Virus record (IMG/VR): IMGVR_UViG_3300013126_004313
Span: 1 to 22,461 of that record
Direction: 5' to 3' (one strand)
DNA length: 22,461 nucleotides
From: a virus
Shown: positions 674 to 14,097 of the stretch, in pieces
Layout: every line of letters begins with the position of its first letter
How positions within the stretch are numbered: position 1 is the first letter of the stretch
The notes under the pieces: model-generated
Databases searched by the model: none
The model's input: only the letters and a program-made list of their open reading frames with translations
Told to the model about the DNA's origin: nothing
Made by a program: the position numbers and the translations under genes

Positions 674-1468
674 ATGAAAAAAATAAAAGTATCCCACGAA
701 GTGCCATTTTGCCTACTTACAAAAAGTAGAGAATTTAACGATTATGATTATTGTTTACCCCATTTAATGGATGAAAATGAAGAATATCGCATATTTTTCC
801 AAAATTCAAAAAATGTAGCGCGTTATATTGTAATGGACAATTCACTCCATGAACTTGGAGAAGCATACAATACAGAACGTTTACTACATTGGGTAAACGA
901 ACTTGAACCAGATGAATTTATTGTGCCCGATGTTTGGGAAGATAAAAATGCTTCCGTTAGAAACGCAAAACTATGGTCCCAAATTGAATTACCAGATGGA
1001 GTAATGAAAGTAGCTGTAGTACAAGCAAAATCATACCATGAAGCTGTCCTATGCACACAAGCATACAAAGATTTGGGCTATAAAAAGATAGCATATTCAT
1101 ATGGTGCTTCATATTACAATGAAATGTGCTCCCACCCAAATAAAGACTTGGGGAAAGCAATTGGTCGTTTTATGGTTATCTCTCAACTATTAAAAGATAA
1201 AATTCTAACAGATACAGATAGAGTACATTTGCTTGGAACTGCTTCTCCTATTGAGTTTGGATTATATAACGGAATAAAATGTATAGAATCAATTGATACA
1301 TCAAATCCCATAATGGCTGCAATTGGAGAAATGCCATATACGAATATGGGGTTATCTTCAAAACCACTAGCAAATATGAACAAATATCAAGATGTAAGTT
1401 TGGAGTTTGTAAATGAGGATCTTGTAGAATATAATGTTGAAATGTTTAGAAAAATAAATGGACTCTAA
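674..1468 (+). CDS. dpdA: DpdA-like 7-deazaguanine DNA transglycosylase (TGT family)
   Basis: This is a tRNA-guanine transglycosylase-fold enzyme, most likely the phage DpdA type that exchanges guanine in DNA for a 7-deazaguanine base. In its 264 residues the TGT landmarks appear in order: MDNS (54-57, where TGT has its catalytic DSGG aspartate), VPDVW (84-88), VAVVQA (113-118, like GIVQGG), IAYSYG (139-144), HLLGTASP (185-192, like the MGVGTP loop) and SIDTSNP (206-212), whose D208 fits the TGT nucleophile. The C-terminal CxCxxC zinc site of tRNA-TGTs is absent, as expected for phage DpdA. The queC, queD, queE and folE genes follow directly, which supports DNA modification. I chose ATG 674, preceded by gtt as at many starts here, over the in-frame TTG at 638 that would overlap the upstream gene. 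A tRNA substrate is the main alternative. Confidence 0.82.
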   Translation: MKKIKVSHEVPFCLLTKSREFNDYDYCLPHLMDENEEYRIFFQNSKNVARYIVMDNSLHELGEAYNTERLLHWVNELEPDEFIVPDVWEDKNASVRNAKLWSQIELPDGVMKVAVVQAKSYHEAVLCTQAYKDLGYKKIAYSYGASYYNEMCSHPNKDLGKAIGRFMVISQLLKDKILTDTDRVHLLGTASPIEFGLYNGIKCIESIDTSNPIMAAIGEMPYTNMGLSSKPLANMNKYQDVSLEFVNEDLVEYNVEMFRKINGL

Positions 1469-1491
1469 TTTGGAGTCCATATTTTTCTTTT
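1458..1491 (+). terminator. Intrinsic terminator after dpdA
   Basis: An 8-bp perfect stem is formed by ATGGACTC (1458-1465) and GAGTCCAT (1473-1480), followed by a T-rich run (1482-1491). The stem overlaps the last codons of the DpdA-like gene. The loop contains the TTTG of the next promoter. Confidence 0.8.
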
Positions 1492-1500
1492 GTATATTAA
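1469..1500 (+). promoter_or_regulatory. Bacteroidota-type promoter P1 (queC operon)
   Basis: TTTG (1469-1472), a 20-nt spacer, then TATATTAA (1493-1500). The first gene starts 16 nt further on, at 1516. The same TTG-N20-TATATT pattern occurs at six other gene starts in the window. It fits the Bacteroidota -33/-7 consensus TTTG...TAnnTTTG. Confidence 0.7.
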
Positions 1501-1515
1501 ACTAAAAATAAAGTT

Positions 1516-1824
1516 ATGGAATATTTAAGTTTATACGACTATTTGAAAAAACCGGCAGGTGAAAAACTAGGTTTAGAAGTAGCTGCTGAAGCTAGAAAAT
1601 GGGAAATACCCACCCAAACAAGAAAGGTATCAAACTCAAGATTTACAGGTACAGTATTTTTATACCCAAAAGAATTCCTTGAATTCTACTTTAGAGAACC
1701 AGATTCTAATCAAATGGAATGGGATGTTTATGTAAAGAATACGATAGGAAACCTTGAAGATGATGATTTACCTAAAGGACATGATTGGATGGGAAATCTT
1801 GGAGATGACGATTTACCTTTCTAA
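1516..1824 (+). CDS. Small protein with SSB-like acidic C-terminal tip
   Basis: This is a 102-residue protein of unknown function and the first gene of the queC operon. Residues 1-60 look like a compact mixed alpha/beta domain (LYDYLKKPAG, GTVFLYP). The C-terminus is acidic and carries a tandem element: GNLEDDDLP at 78-86 and GNLGDDDLPF at 93-102. The last residues DDDLPF closely match the C-terminal tip of bacterial single-stranded DNA-binding proteins (DDDIPF; DDLPF-type tips are what I recall for Bacteroidota). That tip recruits polymerase, helicase and repair partners. No OB-fold is recognisable, so it is probably not an SSB itself. It may bind host SSB-interacting proteins; this is inference from the tail alone. 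Confidence 0.75.
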   Translation: MEYLSLYDYLKKPAGEKLGLEVAAEARKWEIPTQTRKVSNSRFTGTVFLYPKEFLEFYFREPDSNQMEWDVYVKNTIGNLEDDDLPKGHDWMGNLGDDDLPF

Positions 1825-1826
1825 CT

Positions 1827-1979
1827 ATGGAAAAAGAACAATTTGAAGAATACCGCAAACTTTGGAAAGCAGAATGGTATAATCATTGGAGACTCTTGGA
1901 TATTGACTTTGAAGCTTATATGTTGATGAGAGGATTACCAAAAGAAGAATTTGATAGATTAAATAAAGAAGAAGAATGA
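1827..1979 (+). CDS. Small charged protein, unknown
   Basis: This 50-residue ORF (MEKEQFEEYRKLWKAEWY...) starts 2 nt after the previous stop. Its TGA overlaps the ATG of queC (ATGA). It is strongly charged and predicted helical, with several Trp and Tyr residues (WKAEWYNHW). The tight fit between two good genes is the main evidence that it is real. Function is unknown. Confidence 0.6.
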   Translation: MEKEQFEEYRKLWKAEWYNHWRLLDIDFEAYMLMRGLPKEEFDRLNKEEE

Positions 1980-2800
1980 AACACGTTGTAATTTCCCTAT
2001 CTGGAGGAATGGATTCCAGTACACTTTTGTTACGTTGTCTAAAAGAATACGACACGGTAACAGCAATTTCATTTGATTATGGACAAAAGCATCGAGTTGA
2101 GCTTGAACGCGCTCAATCGTTGGTAGGTTATTTAGGCAACAATGATATCGGGATTGCTAATATGGTACGTTATCGCCAAATTAAATTAGATGGTTTAACA
2201 GATTTACTTAACTCAGCACTTGTAGCAGGTGGAGATGATGTACCTGAAGGACATTACGCTGAAGAAAACATGAAAGCAACCGTTGTTCCAAACCGAAATA
2301 AAATATTTGCCTCTATTGTACAAGCAGTTGCACTTTCAATTGCAGATAAAACAGGTGAACAATGTGATATTGCAATGGGAATCCATGCAGGTGATTTTTC
2401 GATTTATCCTGATTGTAGAGCTGAATTTAGAGATGCAGATGATGTTGCTTTCCGTTTAGGAAACTGGGGGGCTGAAAAAGTAGGCTATTTTACCCCATAC
2501 ATTGATGGTATGAAATTTGATATCCTTAAAGATGGAGAAAAATTATGTGAAGAACTTGGATTAGACTTTAACGAAGTATATAAACGTACAAATACTTCAT
2601 ATAAACCAATTCAAATCATTTCATCATCCGGAGACAATTGGTACTCAGACTATAAATCAGCAAGTTCAGTTGAGCGAGTAGAGGCATTTATTAAATTAGG
2701 TCGCCCTGATCCTGCACCATATGCAGACGAAACAGGACCCGTAACATGGGATTTTGTTGTAGAACAAGTGAGCAAAGTTTTGGAAGAAAATGGAAAATAG
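1976..2800 (+). CDS. queC: QueC-like 7-cyano-7-deazaguanine (preQ0) synthase, zinc site lost
   Basis: This is an ATP-dependent enzyme of the PP-loop family. QueC converts 7-carboxy-7-deazaguanine (CDG) through the amide ADG to preQ0. Its 274 residues show the PP-loop SGGMDSS (9-15), FDYGQKHRVEL (33-43), VVPNRN (103-108) and YPDCRAEF (144-151), all typical of QueC. In ordinary QueC the C-terminal region carries four zinc-binding cysteines (SCY...CGxCxxC). Here the matching positions read Ser208, Asp225, Ser228 and Ser231, while the following VERVEAF is retained, so the zinc site is gone. The protein is also longer than the usual 220-235 residues. It could still make preQ0 or could stop at ADG. 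It sits in one operon with queD and queE. Confidence 0.87.
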   Translation: MKHVVISLSGGMDSSTLLLRCLKEYDTVTAISFDYGQKHRVELERAQSLVGYLGNNDIGIANMVRYRQIKLDGLTDLLNSALVAGGDDVPEGHYAEENMKATVVPNRNKIFASIVQAVALSIADKTGEQCDIAMGIHAGDFSIYPDCRAEFRDADDVAFRLGNWGAEKVGYFTPYIDGMKFDILKDGEKLCEELGLDFNEVYKRTNTSYKPIQIISSSGDNWYSDYKSASSVERVEAFIKLGRPDPAPYADETGPVTWDFVVEQVSKVLEENGK

Positions 2801-2834
2801 TTGTATTATAGATTGGGAATTACACCAGAAAGTT

Positions 2835-2969
2835 ATGGCAAAGAAAAATAAAATTACAGTTTGTACAGGTATAGGAGCAAATATGTTCTTCCCTGAATAT
2901 GTTACTATTGAACTTCCGGTTAAGATAGACACCGAAATTAAAAAACCAAAAACAAAGAAAAATGGGTAG
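2835..2969 (+). CDS. Small basic protein, unknown
   Basis: A 44-residue ORF lies between queC and queD, ending in a lysine-rich tail (KKPKTKKNG). It overlaps the start of queD by 8 nt. ATG 2835 is preceded by aaagtt, the leader seen at several genes here. An in-frame ATG at 2790 would give 59 residues and overlap queC by 11 nt, so the start is uncertain. Function is unknown. Confidence 0.5.
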   Translation: MAKKNKITVCTGIGANMFFPEYVTIELPVKIDTEIKKPKTKKNG

Positions 2970-3438
2970 ATATATTAGCACAAAACTATTCGAAAACTAT
3001 TCAGTAGCATTAAGACAATGGAGAGCATCTCACTCACATTGTGAACTATTACATGGCTACGCTTTAAAATTTAAAGTATGGTTCGCATCAAACGAACCAC
3101 TAGAGGAAAACCAGCTAGACGATATGAACTGGATTGTAGACTATGGTGGTTTCAAACCTGCACCTAAAGGAAACGGTTTAAAAGATTGGATGAACTATAT
3201 GTGGGATCATACATTGTTGATTGAAAAAGATGATCCATATTTAGATTTTTTTGAATCTGCAGCAATGGAAGGTTTATGTGCACTTCGTGTTATGGATAAA
3301 ATGGGAGCAGAGTCATGTGCAAAACTAGTGTACGATAAATTTAATGAAGTTCTATCTAAAACAGATGGTGGAAGATGCAAATGTATTAAAGTAGAATGTT
3401 TTGAAAACGATAACAACAGTTCAATATATGAAGAATAG
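2962..3438 (+). CDS. queD: QueD-like 6-carboxy-tetrahydropterin synthase
   Basis: QueD converts dihydroneopterin triphosphate, the FolE product, to 6-carboxy-5,6,7,8-tetrahydropterin, the second step towards 7-deazaguanine. The 158-residue protein has the PTPS/QueD layout: ASHSHC (22-27) with the likely catalytic Cys27, LHGYAL (30-35) where the canonical motif is HGH, WIVDYGGFK (57-65, like the usual v-DF), WDHTLL (81-86) with the Asp-His pair, and a C-terminal VECFEN that provides the conserved Glu. The third zinc histidine of HGH is Tyr33 here. His24 or His26 could take over as ligand, and I recall an SHC...HGYAL pattern in some bacterial and phage homologues. It overlaps queE by 11 nt. Confidence 0.85.
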   Translation: MGRYISTKLFENYSVALRQWRASHSHCELLHGYALKFKVWFASNEPLEENQLDDMNWIVDYGGFKPAPKGNGLKDWMNYMWDHTLLIEKDDPYLDFFESAAMEGLCALRVMDKMGAESCAKLVYDKFNEVLSKTDGGRCKCIKVECFENDNNSSIYEE

Positions 3439-4207
3439 AATAGAAGATTACAATAAAACACTACCAATAGTAGAACTATATCGATGCGTTCAATCTGAAG
3501 GTAGCCGCTTTGGTCGACCAACTATAGCGGTTAGAACCACTGGATGTACGCACAGGTGTTATTTTGGCGAAGGTGGTTGGTGCGATTCATGGTATACTTC
3601 AATCCACCCAGAAAAAGGTACATTTACCTTTAACGACATTATTAAAATATACGATGAAAATCCTCATATCAAGGAAATGATGTTAACAGGTGGTTCACCT
3701 ACAATTCATCCTGCACTTGTAAATGAACTTACACATTTTGCACATGAAAGAGACATCCTTATTACCATCGAAACTGAAGGTAGCCATTTTGTACCTACAG
3801 ATTATCCTATTGGGTTGCTATCTATCAGTCCGAAATTTAGTAATTCTGTACCCGTACTTGGTGTTCTTACGCCTCAAGGAAAAGTGGTGGACCAAAAAAT
3901 GATTGACCTGCATAACAAAAACAGACTTGATGTTCTTGCTATTAGACAAATGATGGATTACCATACAGATTACCATTATAAACCTGTAGTTAACCCTATT
4001 GAGATGCCTGATGTGTGGGTTCAAGTTGAAGCCTTTAGACTAGCACTTGGCATTCCAAAAGATAAAACATATATTATGCCTCCGGGAGACACAAGAGAAG
4101 AACTTATTAGAGTATACCCTATGATCTTTGATTTTTGTGCTGAACATGGTTATAACATGACTGGTAGAGACCACATTATTGCATTTGATACTAAAAGAGG
4201 AGTTTAA
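3428..4207 (+). CDS. queE: QueE-like 7-carboxy-7-deazaguanine synthase (radical SAM)
   Basis: QueE is a radical S-adenosylmethionine enzyme that rearranges carboxy-tetrahydropterin to 7-carboxy-7-deazaguanine (CDG). The 259 residues begin with a QueE-like VQSEGSRFGRPTIAVRTTGC. The 4Fe-4S ligands are probably Cys40, Cys44 and Cys52 (CTHRC then GGWCDSWY), a CX3CX7C spacing instead of CX3CX2C. Further motifs are MLTGGSP (the GGEP loop), IETEGS (like ETNGT) and SISPK. I chose ATG 3428; the in-frame TTG at 3401 would bury 27 more bases in queD. It overlaps queD by 11 nt and is followed by a micro-ORF and thioredoxin. The spacing of the cluster is a QueE subtype feature rather than damage, because WCD is intact. 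Confidence 0.88.
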   Translation: MKNRIEDYNKTLPIVELYRCVQSEGSRFGRPTIAVRTTGCTHRCYFGEGGWCDSWYTSIHPEKGTFTFNDIIKIYDENPHIKEMMLTGGSPTIHPALVNELTHFAHERDILITIETEGSHFVPTDYPIGLLSISPKFSNSVPVLGVLTPQGKVVDQKMIDLHNKNRLDVLAIRQMMDYHTDYHYKPVVNPIEMPDVWVQVEAFRLALGIPKDKTYIMPPGDTREELIRVYPMIFDFCAEHGYNMTGRDHIIAFDTKRGV

Positions 4208-4208
4208 T

Positions 4209-4271
4209 ATGTATTATACAGTCACAACAACATTTGGAGATTACCAAATCAATTATATTATAACAAAATGA
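4209..4271 (+). CDS. Micro-ORF (20 residues) upstream of thioredoxin
   Basis: A 20-residue ORF (MYYTVTTTFGDYQINYIITK) fills the gap between queE and the thioredoxin gene. Its TGA overlaps the thioredoxin ATG (ATGA), so it may be translated and couple the two genes. It may equally be chance. Function is unknown. Confidence 0.3.
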   Translation: MYYTVTTTFGDYQINYIITK

Positions 4272-4516
4272 AAAAATTACTATATTTTTCTACTCCGTGG
4301 TGCGGTCCCTGTAGACAGTTTAAACCGCTAATGGAATCAATGTCAACACAACTCCCCATTACGTTTGTTGATGTAGATGCTTCACCTCAAACAGCCACAC
4401 AATACAATGTGCGAAATGTTCCTACTACAATCTTAATTGATGAAAAGGGGAATGAATTGGGTCGTTTAGTAGGCCCAAAACCAGAAAGCGAAATTCGAGC
4501 TTTATATAATAGATAA
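4268..4516 (+). CDS. Thioredoxin-like protein
   Basis: This is a small thiol-disulfide oxidoreductase of the thioredoxin fold, 82 residues against about 105 for a typical thioredoxin and about 87 for T4 NrdC. It has the active site TPWCGPC (residues 9-15), a central VDVDA strand, the cis-proline motif VPTT (51-54) and a GRLVGP strand near the end. No signal peptide is present, so it is cytoplasmic. In T4-like phages such proteins serve as electron donors for ribonucleotide reductase. No reductase gene is in the window, so the partner is inferred. It is the last gene before the hairpin and promoter at 4517-4548. Confidence 0.88.
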   Translation: MKKLLYFSTPWCGPCRQFKPLMESMSTQLPITFVDVDASPQTATQYNVRNVPTTILIDEKGNELGRLVGPKPESEIRALYNR

Positions 4517-4548
4517 TTTGGAGGAGCGAAAGCTCCTTCGTATATTAC
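4517..4548 (+). promoter_or_regulatory. Bacteroidota-type promoter P2 with a hairpin in its spacer
   Basis: TTTG (4517-4520), a 20-nt spacer, then TATATTAC (4541-4548), 15 nt before the ATG at 4564. The spacer holds a perfect inverted repeat, AGGAGC-GAAA-GCTCCT (4522-4537), with a GAAA tetraloop. No T-run follows, so it is either a weak terminator for the upstream operon or an operator between the two promoter boxes. Confidence 0.65.
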
Positions 4549-4563
4549 AACAAAATTAAAGTT

Positions 4564-4839
4564 ATGGGAAGAGGAAGACCTTCTAAAAAAACCACTTCAA
4601 TTGTCCGAACAGGACGACCTAAAAGTGAAAAAACCGTTATTTGTGTTGTTTACAAAAAAGGTAAAAAACATTATCTAAACACGTATGCAAACTACGAGTT
4701 AGATGCTATTATCTCTACCCGCAAACACACACCTCTTATACCAAATGATTGCGAAATCCTTGAGATTGGTATAGGAAAATCGTATATTGAACGATATAAA
4801 AAACAGTTTAACATTAAAGAAATCACAATTAAAGATTAA
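4564..4839 (+). CDS. AT-hook-like small basic protein
   Basis: A 91-residue basic protein. The N-terminus carries two AT-hook-like cores, RGRPSK (3-8) and TGRPKS (17-22), which suggest minor-groove binding to AT-rich DNA. The rest (VICVVYKKGKKHYLNTYANYELD...) is an unassigned small domain. It is the first gene after promoter P2 and lies directly before folE (1 nt gap between its stop and ATG 4841). An N-terminal GRP-type sequence also opens the gene at 11803. It could be a regulator or a nucleoid-type protein. The AT-hooks are visible; the role is inferred. Confidence 0.6.
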   Translation: MGRGRPSKKTTSIVRTGRPKSEKTVICVVYKKGKKHYLNTYANYELDAIISTRKHTPLIPNDCEILEIGIGKSYIERYKKQFNIKEITIKD

Positions 4840-4840
4840 C

Positions 4841-5539
4841 ATGTCAGAAAACAAACGTAGAAAAAACCACACCGATCTAGAGTGTGTACAAATGGGTTTT
4901 GCAAATGGAGTTGCACCTGGTTTTCCATTAACTGAACAAGAAAAATGGAAAATGGTAGATGAAGCTGAAGAAGCTTATGGTAAATTTTTAGATGCACTTG
5001 GAGTGGATTGGAGAAATGATCCTAATTCTGAAGATACTCCTCGTCGTGTAGCCAAAGCATATGTATTTGATTTATTTGCTGGCCGCTATAATGCAATGTC
5101 TGATATTACATCTTTCCCATCAGACGGATACGATGGTATAGTGATTGAAAGAAATATTCCATTAACTTCAATGTGCTCTCACCACCACCAAACAATTGGA
5201 GGAGTTGTTCATATTGGCTATGTTGTTGGAGAAGGCGGACGTGTAATTGGACTTTCTAAACTAAACCGCATTGTAGAGCACTTTGGCCGTAGAGGAGCAA
5301 TCCAAGAACAATTAACCTCAGCTATTCATCAAGCAGTAAGTAAAGTATGTGAAGGTAATCGTGGAGTAATCGTTACAACAGTAGCAACACACAATTGTGT
5401 TTCATGTCGTGGTGTTAAACATCAAGGCGCTTCCATGGTAACAACCAAAGCATCAGGTGTGTTTATGGAAAATGACAATCAAGCTCGTAAAGAATTTTTC
5501 GACTCATTAAAAATCAACAATGGTGGACACCAAATCTAA
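4841..5539 (+). CDS. folE: GTP cyclohydrolase I
   Basis: FolE turns GTP into dihydroneopterin triphosphate, the first step of both folate and 7-deazaguanine synthesis. The 232 residues contain DTPRRVAKAY (65-74), SMCSHHHQTIGG (110-121) with zinc ligands Cys112 and His115, GRVIGLSKLNRIVEHF (133-148), QEQLT (155-159), and HNCVSCRGVKHQGASMVTT (184-202), whose Cys186 is the third zinc ligand. All catalytic landmarks of type I enzymes are intact. I chose ATG 4841; the upstream in-frame TTG at 4787 would overlap the previous gene by 53 bases. Its 3' end overlaps the phosphoribosyltransferase start by 20 nt. Together with queD, queE, queC and dpdA it completes the pathway from GTP to modified DNA. 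Confidence 0.93.
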   Translation: MSENKRRKNHTDLECVQMGFANGVAPGFPLTEQEKWKMVDEAEEAYGKFLDALGVDWRNDPNSEDTPRRVAKAYVFDLFAGRYNAMSDITSFPSDGYDGIVIERNIPLTSMCSHHHQTIGGVVHIGYVVGEGGRVIGLSKLNRIVEHFGRRGAIQEQLTSAIHQAVSKVCEGNRGVIVTTVATHNCVSCRGVKHQGASMVTTKASGVFMENDNQARKEFFDSLKINNGGHQI

Positions 5540-5927
5540 AATATATTATAGTTGGAGTGAAATAGAGGAACTAGTTGATCTTCTATGTGAACAAATCATA
5601 AAATCAGGACAACAAATTGAACATATATTTGGTATGCCAAGAGGTGGTCTTATTCCTGCTGTTATGATCTCGCATAGATTGGATATCCCGATGACACAAT
5701 CCCCATATCTACCTAACACTTTAATTGTAGATGATATTTGTGATAGTGGGGAAACATTCAAAGATCTATACCTTGAATACGCAAATGCAAAATTTGCCTG
5801 CCTACATTTTAAACCCCATACCTCAGTGTTCAACCCAGACTTTACCAATAAATTCTTCTCAGATGACTGGGTTGTATATCCTTGGGAAAAATTAGATTCG
5901 GAAACAATACAAGATTACTTAAAATGA
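5520..5927 (+). CDS. Purine-type phosphoribosyltransferase-like protein
   Basis: A type I phosphoribosyltransferase (PRTase) fold. The enzyme class joins a base to PRPP to give a nucleotide. Among its 135 residues are GMPRGGLIPA (38-47), the PPi loop seen in xanthine/guanine PRTases, and TLIVDDICDSGET (67-79), the PRPP-binding signature. It is shorter than Gpt (about 152), so the hood region is reduced and the base is unclear. It overlaps folE by 20 nt and is followed by an ATGA overlap. An attractive inference is that it salvages the guanine that DpdA releases during base exchange, returning it to GMP. A general purine-salvage role is the simpler alternative. Confidence 0.8.
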   Translation: MVDTKSKIYYSWSEIEELVDLLCEQIIKSGQQIEHIFGMPRGGLIPAVMISHRLDIPMTQSPYLPNTLIVDDICDSGETFKDLYLEYANAKFACLHFKPHTSVFNPDFTNKFFSDDWVVYPWEKLDSETIQDYLK

Positions 5928-6124
5928 CAAAAGAAGAAATACTAGCTATAATAGATGCAGAATTGCAAGGTAATCTTCAAATATTGATTGATCCTAAACA
6001 AAAGGATAGTTTATCCCAAATGCGAATCAACACTTGGAAAGATACCGTAAAAAACAGATTATATTACCATTTAATAGAAAACCAAAATGACACCACTAGA
6101 GAAAAAACAAGAAGAACTAATTAA
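5924..6124 (+). CDS. Small helical protein, unknown
   Basis: A 66-residue, mostly helical, charged protein (MTKEEILAIIDAELQG...). The chosen ATG overlaps the previous TGA (ATGA); the in-frame TTG at 5882 would overlap the PRTase gene by 46 bases. Its 3' end overlaps the MazG-like gene by 38 nt, an unusually long overlap, so its tail is constrained by two frames. Not recognised. Confidence 0.6.
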   Translation: MTKEEILAIIDAELQGNLQILIDPKQKDSLSQMRINTWKDTVKNRLYYHLIENQNDTTREKTRRTN

Positions 6125-6704
6125 AGTACTTTATGGACAAGTTGTGGATCTATCCATGATGTCTAAAATTGAACTTGGAGACGATGTAATACTTAAATAT
6201 AGAGAATTAACAGATGAAATTGAACATTTAAAATCATCTTATGTACCTTTCGTATCAGAAGTTGAAGAGTTTAACGCTGTAATGGGAAAACCCAATAATT
6301 ATAACCCGGTCATTCCCGATGAGAAGGAGTGGATGTTTGTCTATAATTTTATTTTGGAAGAATTAGAGGAATATAAACATGCCTGTCAAACCGGGAATAT
6401 TATTGAGGTTCTTGATGCTCTGTGTGACATCACGTATGTTTCCTTGGGTAATGGAGGCTGCTTACATGGCCTTAAGGATAAAATATGGCCCGCGTATCAA
6501 GAAGTACAAGCATCGAATCTTAGCAAGGCTTGTACAAGCGAAGAGGAAGCACAAAATACCGTTAGAGTACGGTCCTTTGAGCAAGAAGAAGAGTGCCACT
6601 ATGAAAAGGTTGGCAAATATTATATCGTCTATAGAACACGTGATAGAAAAGTCATGAAGAATATCAATTACTTTAGACCTGATTTAAGTAAATTCTTTAA
6701 GTAA
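6087..6704 (+). CDS. MazG-like nucleoside triphosphate pyrophosphohydrolase
   Basis: This is a member of the all-alpha NTP pyrophosphohydrolase superfamily, which hydrolyses (d)NTPs to monophosphates and pyrophosphate. The metal-binding pattern is visible: FILEELEEYKHA (88-99) gives the ExxE part and EVLDALCDITYVSLG (107-121) gives the DxxxD part with D110 and D114. A helix with EVQASNLSK (139-147) follows, as in MazG-type proteins. The N-terminal 80 residues and the C-terminal basic beta-rich tail (YYIVYRTRDRKVMKN) are extra. It sits between the nucleotide genes and DNA polymerase, so it probably edits the dNTP pool. The exact substrate cannot be read from sequence. Confidence 0.78.
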   Translation: MTPLEKKQEELIKVLYGQVVDLSMMSKIELGDDVILKYRELTDEIEHLKSSYVPFVSEVEEFNAVMGKPNNYNPVIPDEKEWMFVYNFILEELEEYKHACQTGNIIEVLDALCDITYVSLGNGGCLHGLKDKIWPAYQEVQASNLSKACTSEEEAQNTVRVRSFEQEEECHYEKVGKYYIVYRTRDRKVMKNINYFRPDLSKFFK

Positions 6705-6720
6705 CATTTAAATAAAAGTT

Positions 6721-8571
6721 ATGTACCAAGCAGTTTATTATAGCCGCCAACCAGGCGATGATCAGTACCATTATTATCTACGTGATGATAAAAAAGGCAT
6801 TAGCTGCTTTCAATATTGGCCCACATTATATAAACTAGATGAGGAAGGAGAATTTGAAACCCTATTTGGAGATAGATGCTCCCCCATTTCAGGTAAAGTA
6901 GATAGAAAAGACCCTACCATACTAGAAAAAGATATTGATCGTGAACTGGTTTTACTACGCGATGTATATTATAAAACAGATGATATGCCCTCGTATCACA
7001 ATGTCGTTTACCTTGATATTGAGATTGAAATTTTGGGTGCTCTTACCCCATACACTATTAAAGAGGCAAACGCAGAAATAACTGCAATTGCTCTTATTGA
7101 TGTTTCAACCAAGGAAAAGATATGCTTTATCTTGGATAAACAACAAAACATCCCAACAACAACTTCGGATGGAAAACAAGTTGTATCTTGTGTTAGTGAG
7201 GATGATCTTATTCGCAAATTTTTAAACAAATGGGAACAAATGGATCCTACCATTGTTGTAGGATACAATAGTGATTTCTTTGATATTCCATATTTGTACT
7301 ATAGAATTAAAAAGCGTTTAGGGGATGAAGTATTTCGTTTATCTCCAATTGGGAAAATTGAGGAAAACATTTACAATCCAAATTCTCCAATTTCAATTGG
7401 ACTGGTTAACAGTTTGGATTATATGTTGTTGCTTCGCAAGTATATTATGAAGGAAGAACCATCATATAAATTAGGTGATATTGGTTTAAAATATGCTAAA
7501 CTAGGTAAAATTGAATATAATGGTGGTTTAGATAAGTTATTTAAAGAAGACCCAAACAAATACATCGAATATAACATTCGAGATGTTGAAATTATAGAGG
7601 CATTAGAGGAAAAACAGAAATTTATCGAATTAACCATTTTGATATCCCACCTATGCCATACCCCATACGAATCCATCTACTACAATACAGCACTAAATGA
7701 AGGTGCTATATTAACGTATCTAAAACGTAAAAATATAGTAGCGCCAAATAAACCAACCACCACAAATCCAACCATTAGAGAACTGGAAGTTGGTGATGTT
7801 GTTCAACAACAGCGTGGAACACCTACGATTGATGGAACAATATATAGTTTTGAGGATGATAAAACAGTAATCGTTAAAACATTATCAAACAAGTTTATTC
7901 AACGTAATGTTAAAACAATCCGTAAAAAGGAAGGATATAGTGGAGGATATCTCTTGGACCCAGTACCTGGGTTATATAGTTGGTTGATAAATGCCGATTA
8001 TTCTTCGTTATATCCTTCTATAATCCGTACATTAAATTTAGGGATAGAAACACTAATTGGGCGAGTTAAAATCCCAAACCAAAACTATAATGCATGGTGT
8101 AGCCTTGTTGAATTAGAGGAACTAGAACCCACTCAGGTAGTAACTATAGAAAAACTAAACAAAAAAACATATAAAATAGTTGAGGGAACTACCACAGCCC
8201 AAAACCTCTTACACATAATTAAAGAAAACAACCTCATCCTTTCCGCAAATGGAACATTATATGATTCATCTAAAAAAAGCATAGTTGCTGAAATATTAGC
8301 AGATTGGTTTGATTTAAGGGTAGAATATAAAAAACTAATGAAAGAAGCATATAATAGCGGAGACACTGAAAAAGGGAAACTATATAATCAAAAACAACAT
8401 AGTATAAAAATACTCCTCAATGCAGTTTACGGTGGATTCGCCATTAACTCATTTAGATTTACAGACGGATATAAAATGTTATCTTCATCTATTACTACAA
8501 CTGGTCAAAGATGCATACAAGAAACTATAAAATATGCAAATGAACTAATAGAAAAAGAATATTTAAAATAA
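6721..8571 (+). CDS. 43A: DNA polymerase family B, N-terminal part (exonuclease, palm, fingers)
   Basis: First part of the replicative T4 gp43-type DNA polymerase. In 616 residues it shows the 3'-5' exonuclease motifs YLDIEIE (ExoI, about 97-103), VGYNSDFFDIPY (ExoII, about 180-191) and YNIRDVEII (ExoIII, about 284-292). Polymerase motif A is NADYSSLYPS (about 423-432) and motif B is the helix ending KILLNAVYGGF (about 563-573). It stops at 8571 before motif C, which lies in the gene at 9584. With the 300 residues there, the sum is 916, close to T4 gp43 (898). So this is a split polymerase, not a damaged one; the two chains must assemble. ATG 6721 is preceded by aaaagtt. Confidence 0.92.
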   Translation: MYQAVYYSRQPGDDQYHYYLRDDKKGISCFQYWPTLYKLDEEGEFETLFGDRCSPISGKVDRKDPTILEKDIDRELVLLRDVYYKTDDMPSYHNVVYLDIEIEILGALTPYTIKEANAEITAIALIDVSTKEKICFILDKQQNIPTTTSDGKQVVSCVSEDDLIRKFLNKWEQMDPTIVVGYNSDFFDIPYLYYRIKKRLGDEVFRLSPIGKIEENIYNPNSPISIGLVNSLDYMLLLRKYIMKEEPSYKLGDIGLKYAKLGKIEYNGGLDKLFKEDPNKYIEYNIRDVEIIEALEEKQKFIELTILISHLCHTPYESIYYNTALNEGAILTYLKRKNIVAPNKPTTTNPTIRELEVGDVVQQQRGTPTIDGTIYSFEDDKTVIVKTLSNKFIQRNVKTIRKKEGYSGGYLLDPVPGLYSWLINADYSSLYPSIIRTLNLGIETLIGRVKIPNQNYNAWCSLVELEELEPTQVVTIEKLNKKTYKIVEGTTTAQNLLHIIKENNLILSANGTLYDSSKKSIVAEILADWFDLRVEYKKLMKEAYNSGDTEKGKLYNQKQHSIKILLNAVYGGFAINSFRFTDGYKMLSSSITTTGQRCIQETIKYANELIEKEYLK

Positions 8572-8636: not shown

Positions 8637-9587
8637 ATGCCTAAAAAATTAACTACTGAACAATTTATTGAAAGAGCAAAAAATAAACATGGGGATAGAT
8701 ATGATTATTCTGAAACCACATATAATGGTAATACACAAAAAATTAAAATAATATGCAAAGAACACGGCCCGTTCCATTGCAACCCTTCAGACCATTCAGT
8801 TAATGGATCGGGATGTCAAAAATGTGCTGGGATAGGGTATTTTGAAGATCCACTAGAGTATTTTATTGAAAGATCAAATGTAATACATAATAATAAATAC
8901 GACTATTCAAAATTTATTTACACCACAGCCAAAACCAAATCTACTGTTGTGTGTCCTACTCACGGTGATTTTCAAATCCATCCAAACAACCATTTAAACA
9001 ATCATGGATGCCCGGGATGTAGGGGAAGTAAAATATCCCAAACCAGAATATCCCACAATACTGATGAAAAAATATATGAAAAATTAAATAAAATCCACAA
9101 CAACAAATACACATACCCACCCCAACCAGAAATAAGTAGAAATAATAAGCATAAATTAAAGATAATATGCCCCATTCACGGTGCATTTACACAATCATTT
9201 TTAAACCATTTTTATAGGGGATGCGGGTGTGAAAAATGTGGTAATAATAAAATATCCAAAGGAGAAAAAAGAATAGAAGAATTTCTTATGAAACATAGTA
9301 TACCCCATAGTAGAGAATATACTTTTGAAGGATGCATAAACGATAAAACAGGCAAAAAATTACTCTTTGACTTCTACCTCCCAGAACACAAAACATGTAT
9401 AGAATATCAAGGTAAACAACATTTTGAAGAAAGTGAATTTTTTAAAATAAGAAGTGGAGATTTAAAAGAATATCAAAGAAGAGATGAAATTAAAGAAAAA
9501 TTTTGTATATTAAATGATATAAATTTGATCCAAATAACATATAAGCATTATCATAAAATCCCAACAATATTAACCCAATTCATATGA
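8637..9587 (+). mobile_element. Homing-endonuclease-like gene inside the DNA polymerase locus
   Basis: A 316-residue protein that is probably a free-standing homing endonuclease. Residues 1-200 hold three similar units of about 55 residues. Each opens with a helix (FIERAKNKHGDRYDYS, FIERSNVIHNNKYDYS, IYEKLNKIHNNKYTYP), then CxxHGxF, then GCxxC, a zinc-ribbon type DNA-binding repeat. Residues 206-316 look like a Vsr-type PD-(D/E)XK nuclease: GEKRIEEFL, FDFYLPEHKTCIEYQGKQHFE with the catalytic Asp/Glu/Gln-His positions, and a later K..C...LIQI. It splits the polymerase between motifs B and C. Its TGA overlaps the ATG of the second polymerase part (ATGA). The coding sequence is more AT-rich than its neighbours, consistent with transfer. 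Confidence 0.8.
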
Positions 9588-10486
9588 AATTTAATGTACA
9601 GGAATCAAATAAACACGTAGCTGGATCAGATACGGATTCATTGATTGTAGCTCTAGAAGGTATTCTTAAACACACTATAAAAAACTACGAAACCACACCA
9701 GACGAAAATATTATTGAACATGTAAAAAAACTTCAACAGGAAATAGGGGAAAAATTAAACACATACCAAAACACAATTGCATCTAAGTGCTTTAACACTA
9801 CAGAACACTACCTGGACCTCAAACCAGAATATATTATTAAAAAGACATATTGGGCTGGAAAAAGACGATATGCCCAATACATAATAGATAAAGAAGGCAT
9901 CCCTGTTGAAGAATTAGATATAAAAGGATTGGACATTATGAAATCCAATTTCCCTCCATACTTTAAAAACTTTGGAGAAGAGCTTATCAAAAGCATATTG
10001 TTTGGTAAAAAGAAAGAAGACGTTGATAAATTTGTAATGGATTTTAAAGATTCAATGCAAACTATAGAATGGATAAAATTGCTCAAACCAACAGGACTTA
10101 AAAAATTGGATGAATATATTGAGCGTAAACCTATGGCTGGTGAATTATTTTCAAAATTAAAATTGAAATGCCCCATCAATACAAAAGCAGCTATCATCTA
10201 TAATGATTTCCTTCGACATAAAAGTCTACAACGTAAATTCCCCGAATTTACCATTGGAGACAAAATGTATATTGCGTATTTGAAACCAAACCCATACAAA
10301 ATAGATGTTATAGGTTATAACGGATACAATGATCCAACAGAAATAACAGAGTTGATCAACAAATATATTGACCGTGATGGGTTATTTGACAGCGTAATCA
10401 GAAATAAATTGGAAACAGTATACGATGATATTAACTGGTCACTTAATTTGAACCCATACAAATCAATATTTTTTAACTTTAGTTGA
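9584..10486 (+). CDS. 43B: DNA polymerase family B, C-terminal part (motif C and thumb)
   Basis: Second part of the gp43-type polymerase, 300 residues. It opens with HVAGSDTDSLIV (residues 11-22), the motif C whose two aspartates bind the catalytic metals. KKTYWAGKRRYA (about 84-95) matches the KKRY-type primer-grip motif that follows motif C. The C-terminal half corresponds to the thumb. The C-terminal PCNA-interacting tail could be NPYKSIFFNFS, which resembles the hydrophobic ends used by T4 gp43 to bind the clamp; this is inference. The start is ATGA-coupled to the endonuclease gene. The N-terminal residues MKFNVQESNK would follow directly on ELIEKE of the upstream part in an unsplit gene. 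Confidence 0.9.
   Translation: MKFNVQESNKHVAGSDTDSLIVALEGILKHTIKNYETTPDENIIEHVKKLQQEIGEKLNTYQNTIASKCFNTTEHYLDLKPEYIIKKTYWAGKRRYAQYIIDKEGIPVEELDIKGLDIMKSNFPPYFKNFGEELIKSILFGKKKEDVDKFVMDFKDSMQTIEWIKLLKPTGLKKLDEYIERKPMAGELFSKLKLKCPINTKAAIIYNDFLRHKSLQRKFPEFTIGDKMYIAYLKPNPYKIDVIGYNGYNDPTEITELINKYIDRDGLFDSVIRNKLETVYDDINWSLNLNPYKSIFFNFS

Positions 10487-12161: not shown

Positions 12162-12165
<4 letters not shown>
11803..12165 (+). CDS. Small protein with AT-hook-like N-terminus
   Basis: A 120-residue protein. The start carries RRGRPAKGES (7-16), an AT-hook-like core. The remainder, with IVGYYSSFSNALNSIAKQKF (about 68-87), looks like a small alpha/beta domain that I cannot name. It is the first gene of the groES-groEL operon, and its stop overlaps the groES ATG by 4 nt. 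The RGRP start and the promoter-proximal position are shared with the gene at 4564. DNA binding, perhaps regulatory, is an inference. Confidence 0.6.

Positions 12166-14097
<1,932 letters not shown>

Follow-up and report, generated by a model that had tools for sequence, protein, structure and literature searches.

Zinc-ligand loss in QueC and QueD and a FolE-linked phosphoribosyltransferase in a phage gene cluster predicted to exchange guanine in DNA

Phages are known to protect their DNA with 7-deazaguanine bases. In the firehammerviruses of Campylobacter, deoxyguanosine is completely replaced by 7-deazaguanine derivatives (PMC10273834). These phages were once thought to insert 7-deazaguanine without the DNA transglycosylase DpdA; a 2019 survey listed them with pathway genes but no DpdA, whereas phages resembling 9g and nt-1 carry DpdA1 or DpdA2 together with que genes (PMC6884629). 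Here we analyze a gene cluster of this kind in a fragment of an uncultured virus, IMG/VR record IMGVR_UViG_3300013126_004313. The entire record, 22,461 bases, is the stretch we studied and is referred to below as the window. Genes for a DpdA-like DNA guanine transglycosylase, QueC-like, QueD-like and QueE-like proteins and FolE are all present on its plus strand, and we think it very probable that they serve a phage-encoded, post-replicative exchange of guanine in DNA. The new elements, relative both to known phage protection of this type and to the first-pass annotation of the window, are the loss of zinc ligands from QueC and QueD and a salvage enzyme, a purine phosphoribosyltransferase (PRT), coupled to folE.

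How does this locus compare with the closest described systems? Like the window, Flavobacterium phage vB_FspM_immuto (Immutovirus; hereafter immuto) has a DpdA (35% identity), a zinc-less QueC (74%), QueD, QueE, a PRT beside FolE, a nucleoside triphosphate pyrophosphohydrolase and GroES/EL. Unlike the window, it has a family A polymerase and, beside dpdA, genes for QueF and a formyltransferase; immuto-type DNA presumably carries a preQ1 derivative. The Campylobacter firehammervirus CP220 shares a homologous short DpdA (37%), QueC and QueD, but its genes are scattered, the zinc ligands of its QueC and QueD are intact and its dpdA is annotated as hypothetical. It also has a Gpt-like PRT (28%), but separate, elsewhere in the genome. 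Gp042 of Cellulophaga phage phiST belongs to the same short DpdA family as the window protein (hidden Markov model E 4e-16; hhalign 98%), and the phiST cluster likewise includes a QueD of the HGY type, a QueE with CX3CX7C spacing, FolE, MazG and a PRT; unlike the window, it has no QueC in the region read, and its PRT lies about 19 kb from folE. Escherichia phage 9g, which the first-pass annotation took as its model, is not the nearest case.

The transglycosylase gene (674-1468) starts with ATG and encodes 264 amino acids. Downstream lie genes for a QueC-like 7-cyano-7-deazaguanine (preQ0) synthase (1976-2800; PF06508, 2.1e-38), a phage-type QueD-like 6-carboxytetrahydropterin synthase with CxxxHGY (2962-3438; PF01242, 6.4e-11; PHROG QueD, 8e-31), a QueE-like radical SAM 7-carboxy-7-deazaguanine (CDG) synthase (3428-4207; PHROG QueE-like, 1.6e-45) and FolE, GTP cyclohydrolase I (4841-5539, most likely from the ATG at 4841; PF01227, 4.3e-43). 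These Pfam and PHROG matches bear out the earlier claim that folE, queD, queE and queC lie near a gene for a TGT-fold protein, TGT being tRNA-guanine transglycosylase. The further claim that the genes are recognizable by their catalytic motifs needs qualification: the catalytic motifs are kept, but the zinc motifs that help to define QueC and QueD are gone. A scan of IMG/VR for the DpdA-like protein yielded at least 142 relatives. We counted genes at the 51 related loci where 9 kb or more of sequence follows dpdA: every one has queC and queD, 45 have queE, 41 folE, 44 a thioredoxin gene and 43 a MazG-like gene. All 374 que and folE genes counted at related loci lie on the same strand as dpdA. 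This linkage is not due to chance.

No Pfam or NCBIfam family matches the 674-1468 protein, and its single match is a PHROG of unknown function. Its sequence places it in a family of short phage DpdA proteins together with the immuto protein, annotated as DpdA (35.1% identity, 3e-46), and that of CP220 (36.7%, 1e-32). Weak homologs occur in some Bacillus phages, and profiles detect phiST gp042 and a protein of Chryseobacterium phage MA9V-3. In the DpdA tree the window protein falls in a supported clade apart from that of CP220 and immuto. The CP220 'hypothetical protein' gp056 (L003:9995-10771) is a member of the window's family; the gene after it resembles thymidylate kinase, as does one downstream of immuto dpdA. 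Cui et al. in 2023 reportedly gave the name DpdA3 to a family responsible for complete replacement.

An AlphaFold2 model built from 51 aligned relatives (pLDDT 93, pTM 0.89) has the fold of a TGT. Foldseek places tRNA-TGTs at the top (E 3.7e-9), and the top match in VIA-align is 7ui4, the bacterial DNA preQ0 insertase DpdA (Z 17.1 over 231 residues), tied with archaeosine TGT (Z 17.1). The bacterial enzyme, which works inside the dpd island, shares the fold and the motifs HLLG..P..F and SID..P; it is 436 residues long against 264, with 14% identity over the 231 aligned residues. Fifty-three family proteins, those of immuto and CP220 included, are invariant at D55, P85-D86, Q117, HLLG-x3-P, P192 and D208-T-S. 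We predict that D55, D86, Q117 and D208 are catalytic or base-binding residues, the first three equated with TGT residues by motif order, and that D208, in SIDTSNP, is the candidate nucleophile. Because no Cys/His cluster follows D208, in the sequence or among the invariant columns, the Cys3His zinc site of tRNA-TGTs is absent. The first-pass annotation's TGT-fold protein without that site therefore stands. That annotation had named clear placement among the tRNA-TGTs or outside the TGT fold as fatal to its reading. Neither occurred: the top structural match is a DpdA, albeit tied with archaeosine TGT, and the relatives by sequence that have names are proteins of phages, one of them annotated as DpdA. 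The protein combines a TGT-type barrel, conserved catalytic and base-recognition residues and linkage to preQ0 genes, features that characterize DpdA in the broad sense, and we predict that it exchanges guanine in DNA.

The QueC of the cluster departs from the textbook enzyme. Canonical QueC combines SGGxDS with a C(x)8CxxCxxC zinc motif, and YxQxHxxE, VPxRN and YPDC are also conserved (PMC13329287). In the window protein all four zinc cysteines are replaced, and RTNTSYKP...SDYKSASSVERVEAF stands in place of the Cys4 motif. This replacement is nearly invariant among relatives, 66 of 68 of which are zinc-less. The protein scores 131.5 bits against TIGR00364, under the cut-off of 150.3. Yet SGGxDS, YxQxHxxE and VPxRN are kept in all 68, zinc-less QueC retains YPDC, and the essential tyrosine of the zinc region is still present in the window protein. 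At least 120 viral contigs carry the zinc-less motif. Across 84,980 genomes of bacteria and archaea it turns up in just seven contigs, which all look phage-derived, with dpdA or phage-type queD or queE in every one. QueC of Rhizobium phage RHEph04 and Dinoroseobacter phage R26L also lacks the cysteines, so zinc loss recurs in phages, while alignment shows that VpKK5 and D484 keep them. Two related loci, L029 and L052, carry a canonical zinc-type QueC in the same cluster as their only copy, which suggests that both forms do the same job. We considered zinc loss as a mark of phages that produce the amide ADG and rejected it: CP220, whose DNA contains the corresponding nucleoside dADG, keeps its cysteines.

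QueD has undergone a parallel change. In 60 of 61 relatives two of its three zinc histidines are gone: F, L or I stands in place of the AAH histidine, and HGH has become HGY. The catalytic CxxxH and DH are kept. The same replacement is seen in several other phages; CP220 and VpKK5 retain the histidines. We found no description of zinc-less QueC or QueD in the literature searched, which does not by itself prove novelty. FolE reaches 147 bits where the cut-off is 27, and it keeps its zinc Cys/His/Cys (MCSHHH, HNCVSCRG). The likely start of queE is the ATG at 3428, matching its relatives, upstream of which the listed open reading frame (ORF) opens at TTG; its Pfam Radical_SAM match (1.2e-5) is below the cut-off, as are its scores against the NCBIfam QueE models. 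This QueE keeps the three cluster cysteines of radical SAM enzymes, but they are spaced CX3CX7C rather than CX3CX2C, as they are in nearly all of 52 relatives and in phiST.

The PRT gene (5520-5927, plus strand; PF00156, 2.7e-9) overlaps the end of folE with its start. Its Gpt-like product has the phosphoribosyl pyrophosphate (PRPP) motif VDDICDSGET (VDDxxDSGxT) and a purine-site W[VI]xxPW, and it matches a solved purine PRT (PDB, 6.7e-15). In 23 of the 26 loci that have both genes, PRT and folE are directly adjacent, 13 in the order folE-PRT and 10 in the order PRT-folE. Since both orders occur, the association is not merely an inherited gene order. In Vibrio phage VpKK5, Stenotrophomonas phage Bhz54 and related dpdA phages, some of them DpdA1 or DpdA2 phages, the N-terminus of FolE is fused to a PRT-like domain that shares these signatures but is not called by Pfam. 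In Brevundimonas phage MaInes a xanthine PRT directly follows folE. Fused genes include L239:5917-6819 (VpKK5-like) and L240:5905-6798 (a Stenotrophomonas phage), in which the N-terminal PRT-like domain is unannotated.

How might these enzymes work together? FolE, QueD, QueE and the zinc-less QueC would convert GTP to preQ0, and the short DpdA would swap guanine in phage DNA for preQ0, or for ADG, by way of an aspartate nucleophile and a TGT-like covalent intermediate. Restriction enzymes would then no longer recognize the modified DNA. Because DpdA chemistry frees one guanine per exchange, the folE-coupled PRT may use PRPP to recycle each freed guanine to GMP, which kinases would return to GTP, the substrate of FolE. 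Our analysis establishes the genes, their motifs, the fold, the family and the conserved linkage, whereas the product, the DNA substrate, the degree of replacement, the recycling loop and the protection are predictions. In its fullest form this scheme has most or all guanine exchanged after replication, a cycle closed by the FolE-tied PRT, QueC and QueD working without their usual zinc sites, and a guanine loop general to phage 7-deazaguanine systems; we advance that form tentatively and think it may well prove too broad.

The window is a fragment, so absences within it mean little alone. Its wider group, represented by 25 contigs that include several of 150-174 kb, yielded neither QueF nor a formyltransferase. 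Searches for QueF gave matches below cut-off in four relatives; the one examined, in G018, lies inside folE, which shares the T-fold. QueF and the formyltransferase do occur in immuto and some immuto-like contigs. The absence of both from the 25 contigs makes dPreQ0 the most likely product, with dADG second. The first-pass annotation had reported no QueF and predicted preQ0 or ADG, and this remains the best guess.

Might the final base be ADG, with the zinc-less QueC stopping at its first product? The firehammerviruses, the closest phages whose chemistry is known, contain dADG (PMC6884629) and have a homologous DpdA; QueC makes ADG as an intermediate (PMC13329287), and the altered zinc region adjoins the essential tyrosine. 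Set against this, the ADG phage CP220 has a QueC with intact cysteines, so zinc loss does not track ADG, and immuto pairs the zinc-less QueC, 74% identical to the window's, with QueF, which needs preQ0. We regard ADG as a real but less likely outcome. The near-invariant replacement of four cysteines in QueC and two histidines in QueD also raises the idea that neither protein performs its textbook step and that the product is some other 7-deazapurine, such as CDG joined to another amine in the way that QueC-family ligases act on proteins; repurposed members of that family are known (PMC13329287). We consider this improbable, given that YxQxHxxE, VPxRN and YPDC are retained and that in L029 and L052 a canonical QueC has taken the place of this form, implying the same job.

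Other accounts move the modification away from base exchange in DNA. If the PRT accepted the modified base rather than recycling guanine, it would yield a nucleotide that ribonucleotide reductase could reduce, feeding a pre-replicative route in which the polymerase incorporates a modified dNTP, and the nearby MazG-like enzyme could remove dGTP. But adjacency and fusion couple the PRT to folE, the first step, and not to queC or dpdA; the same clusters hold a base-exchange enzyme, and many loci that keep dpdA have no PRT. This route seems to us quite improbable. Could the pathway instead serve queuosine in tRNA, or boost the host, with 674-1468 a tRNA-type transglycosylase? The equal fold score with archaeosine TGT would allow it. 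However, the protein lacks the zinc site and is about 100 residues shorter than bacterial TGT, its relatives come exclusively from phages or viral contigs, the DNA of one relative lineage is fully modified (PMC10273834), and no QueF is found in the 25 related contigs. We judge this reading very improbable indeed.

Several observations nonetheless weigh against post-replicative exchange as we describe it. The tie between 7ui4 and archaeosine TGT means that the fold alone is no proof of a DNA substrate. The family profile matches 7ui4 weakly (E 0.12), even though HLLG..P..F and then SID..P are aligned, and no sequence relation to the DpdA1 or DpdA2 transglycosylases was detected with our low-diversity profile. 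Without those zinc ligands, the reactions of QueC and QueD could be altered. Because the window is a fragment, late enzymes could sit elsewhere in the genome. Finally, the PRT is present in 21 of the 51 loci and absent from 30; it is at most an accessory, and a host enzyme may serve where it is missing.

Why would a phage keep such a salvage enzyme? Were replacement complete, about 54,000 guanines would be freed per 160 kb genome at the window's GC content, as many as the 7-deazaguanines inserted, and a folE-coupled PRT offers a testable answer to how that cost is paid. If true, the guanine loop would be a general, unrecognized part of phage 7-deazaguanine systems. QueC and QueD without zinc ligands but with their other signature residues amount to a natural experiment on the role of the metal, and through the DpdA-like family a hypothetical firehammervirus protein is linked with a large set of T4-like phages from the environment.

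Other genes accompany the pathway. A small conserved protein of 102 residues is encoded beside dpdA (1516-1824, plus strand); of the 76 loci that have both genes, 65 place them no more than 150 bp apart. Most of its relatives conserve an acidic C-terminal tail, DDDLPF, of the kind by which single-stranded DNA-binding proteins (SSBs) recruit partners. It does not appear to be an SSB with the usual oligonucleotide-binding (OB) fold: the AlphaFold2 model is beta-alpha-beta (mean pLDDT 68), poor outside the first 60 residues and with no significant fold match. From its tail, a link between DpdA and the replisome or single-stranded DNA is possible. On the same strand are a thioredoxin-like protein (4268-4516; PF00085, 6.4e-16), whose gene is found in most clusters and usually directly beside queD (72 of 101 loci), and a MazG-like nucleotide pyrophosphohydrolase (6087-6704; PF01503, 1.2e-7; PHROG, 1.4e-24).

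No close match to the window exists among 50,697 phage records. The first-pass annotation called it a T4-like phage with a Bacteroidota-type host. The former is supported: besides CP220, 10 of the 11 large phage contigs and genomes checked encode the Gp23 capsid protein, among them a relative with a 91%-identical DpdA. A Bacteroidota host is plausible by analogy with immuto, which infects Flavobacterium. The remaining genes encode a family B DNA polymerase, GroES and GroEL (12162-14097; also phage-encoded in immuto), an AAA+ clamp-loader-like protein, a PD-(D/E)XK nuclease and two glycosyltransferases. A PreQ1-riboswitch-like match at 9653-9694 scored 20.2 bits against a gathering threshold of 39 and lies inside the polymerase coding sequence; we dismissed it as chance. 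In the region made up of 6721-8571, 8637-9587 and 9584-10486, the polymerase gene is interrupted just upstream of motif C (GSDTDS) by an insert of about 1 kb carrying a zinc-finger ORF, probably a homing endonuclease. A group I intron at the split was rejected, as Rfam gave no match. Inserts of 66-2077 bp break the gene at this site in 16 of 40 related loci, whereas the closest relatives are uninterrupted.

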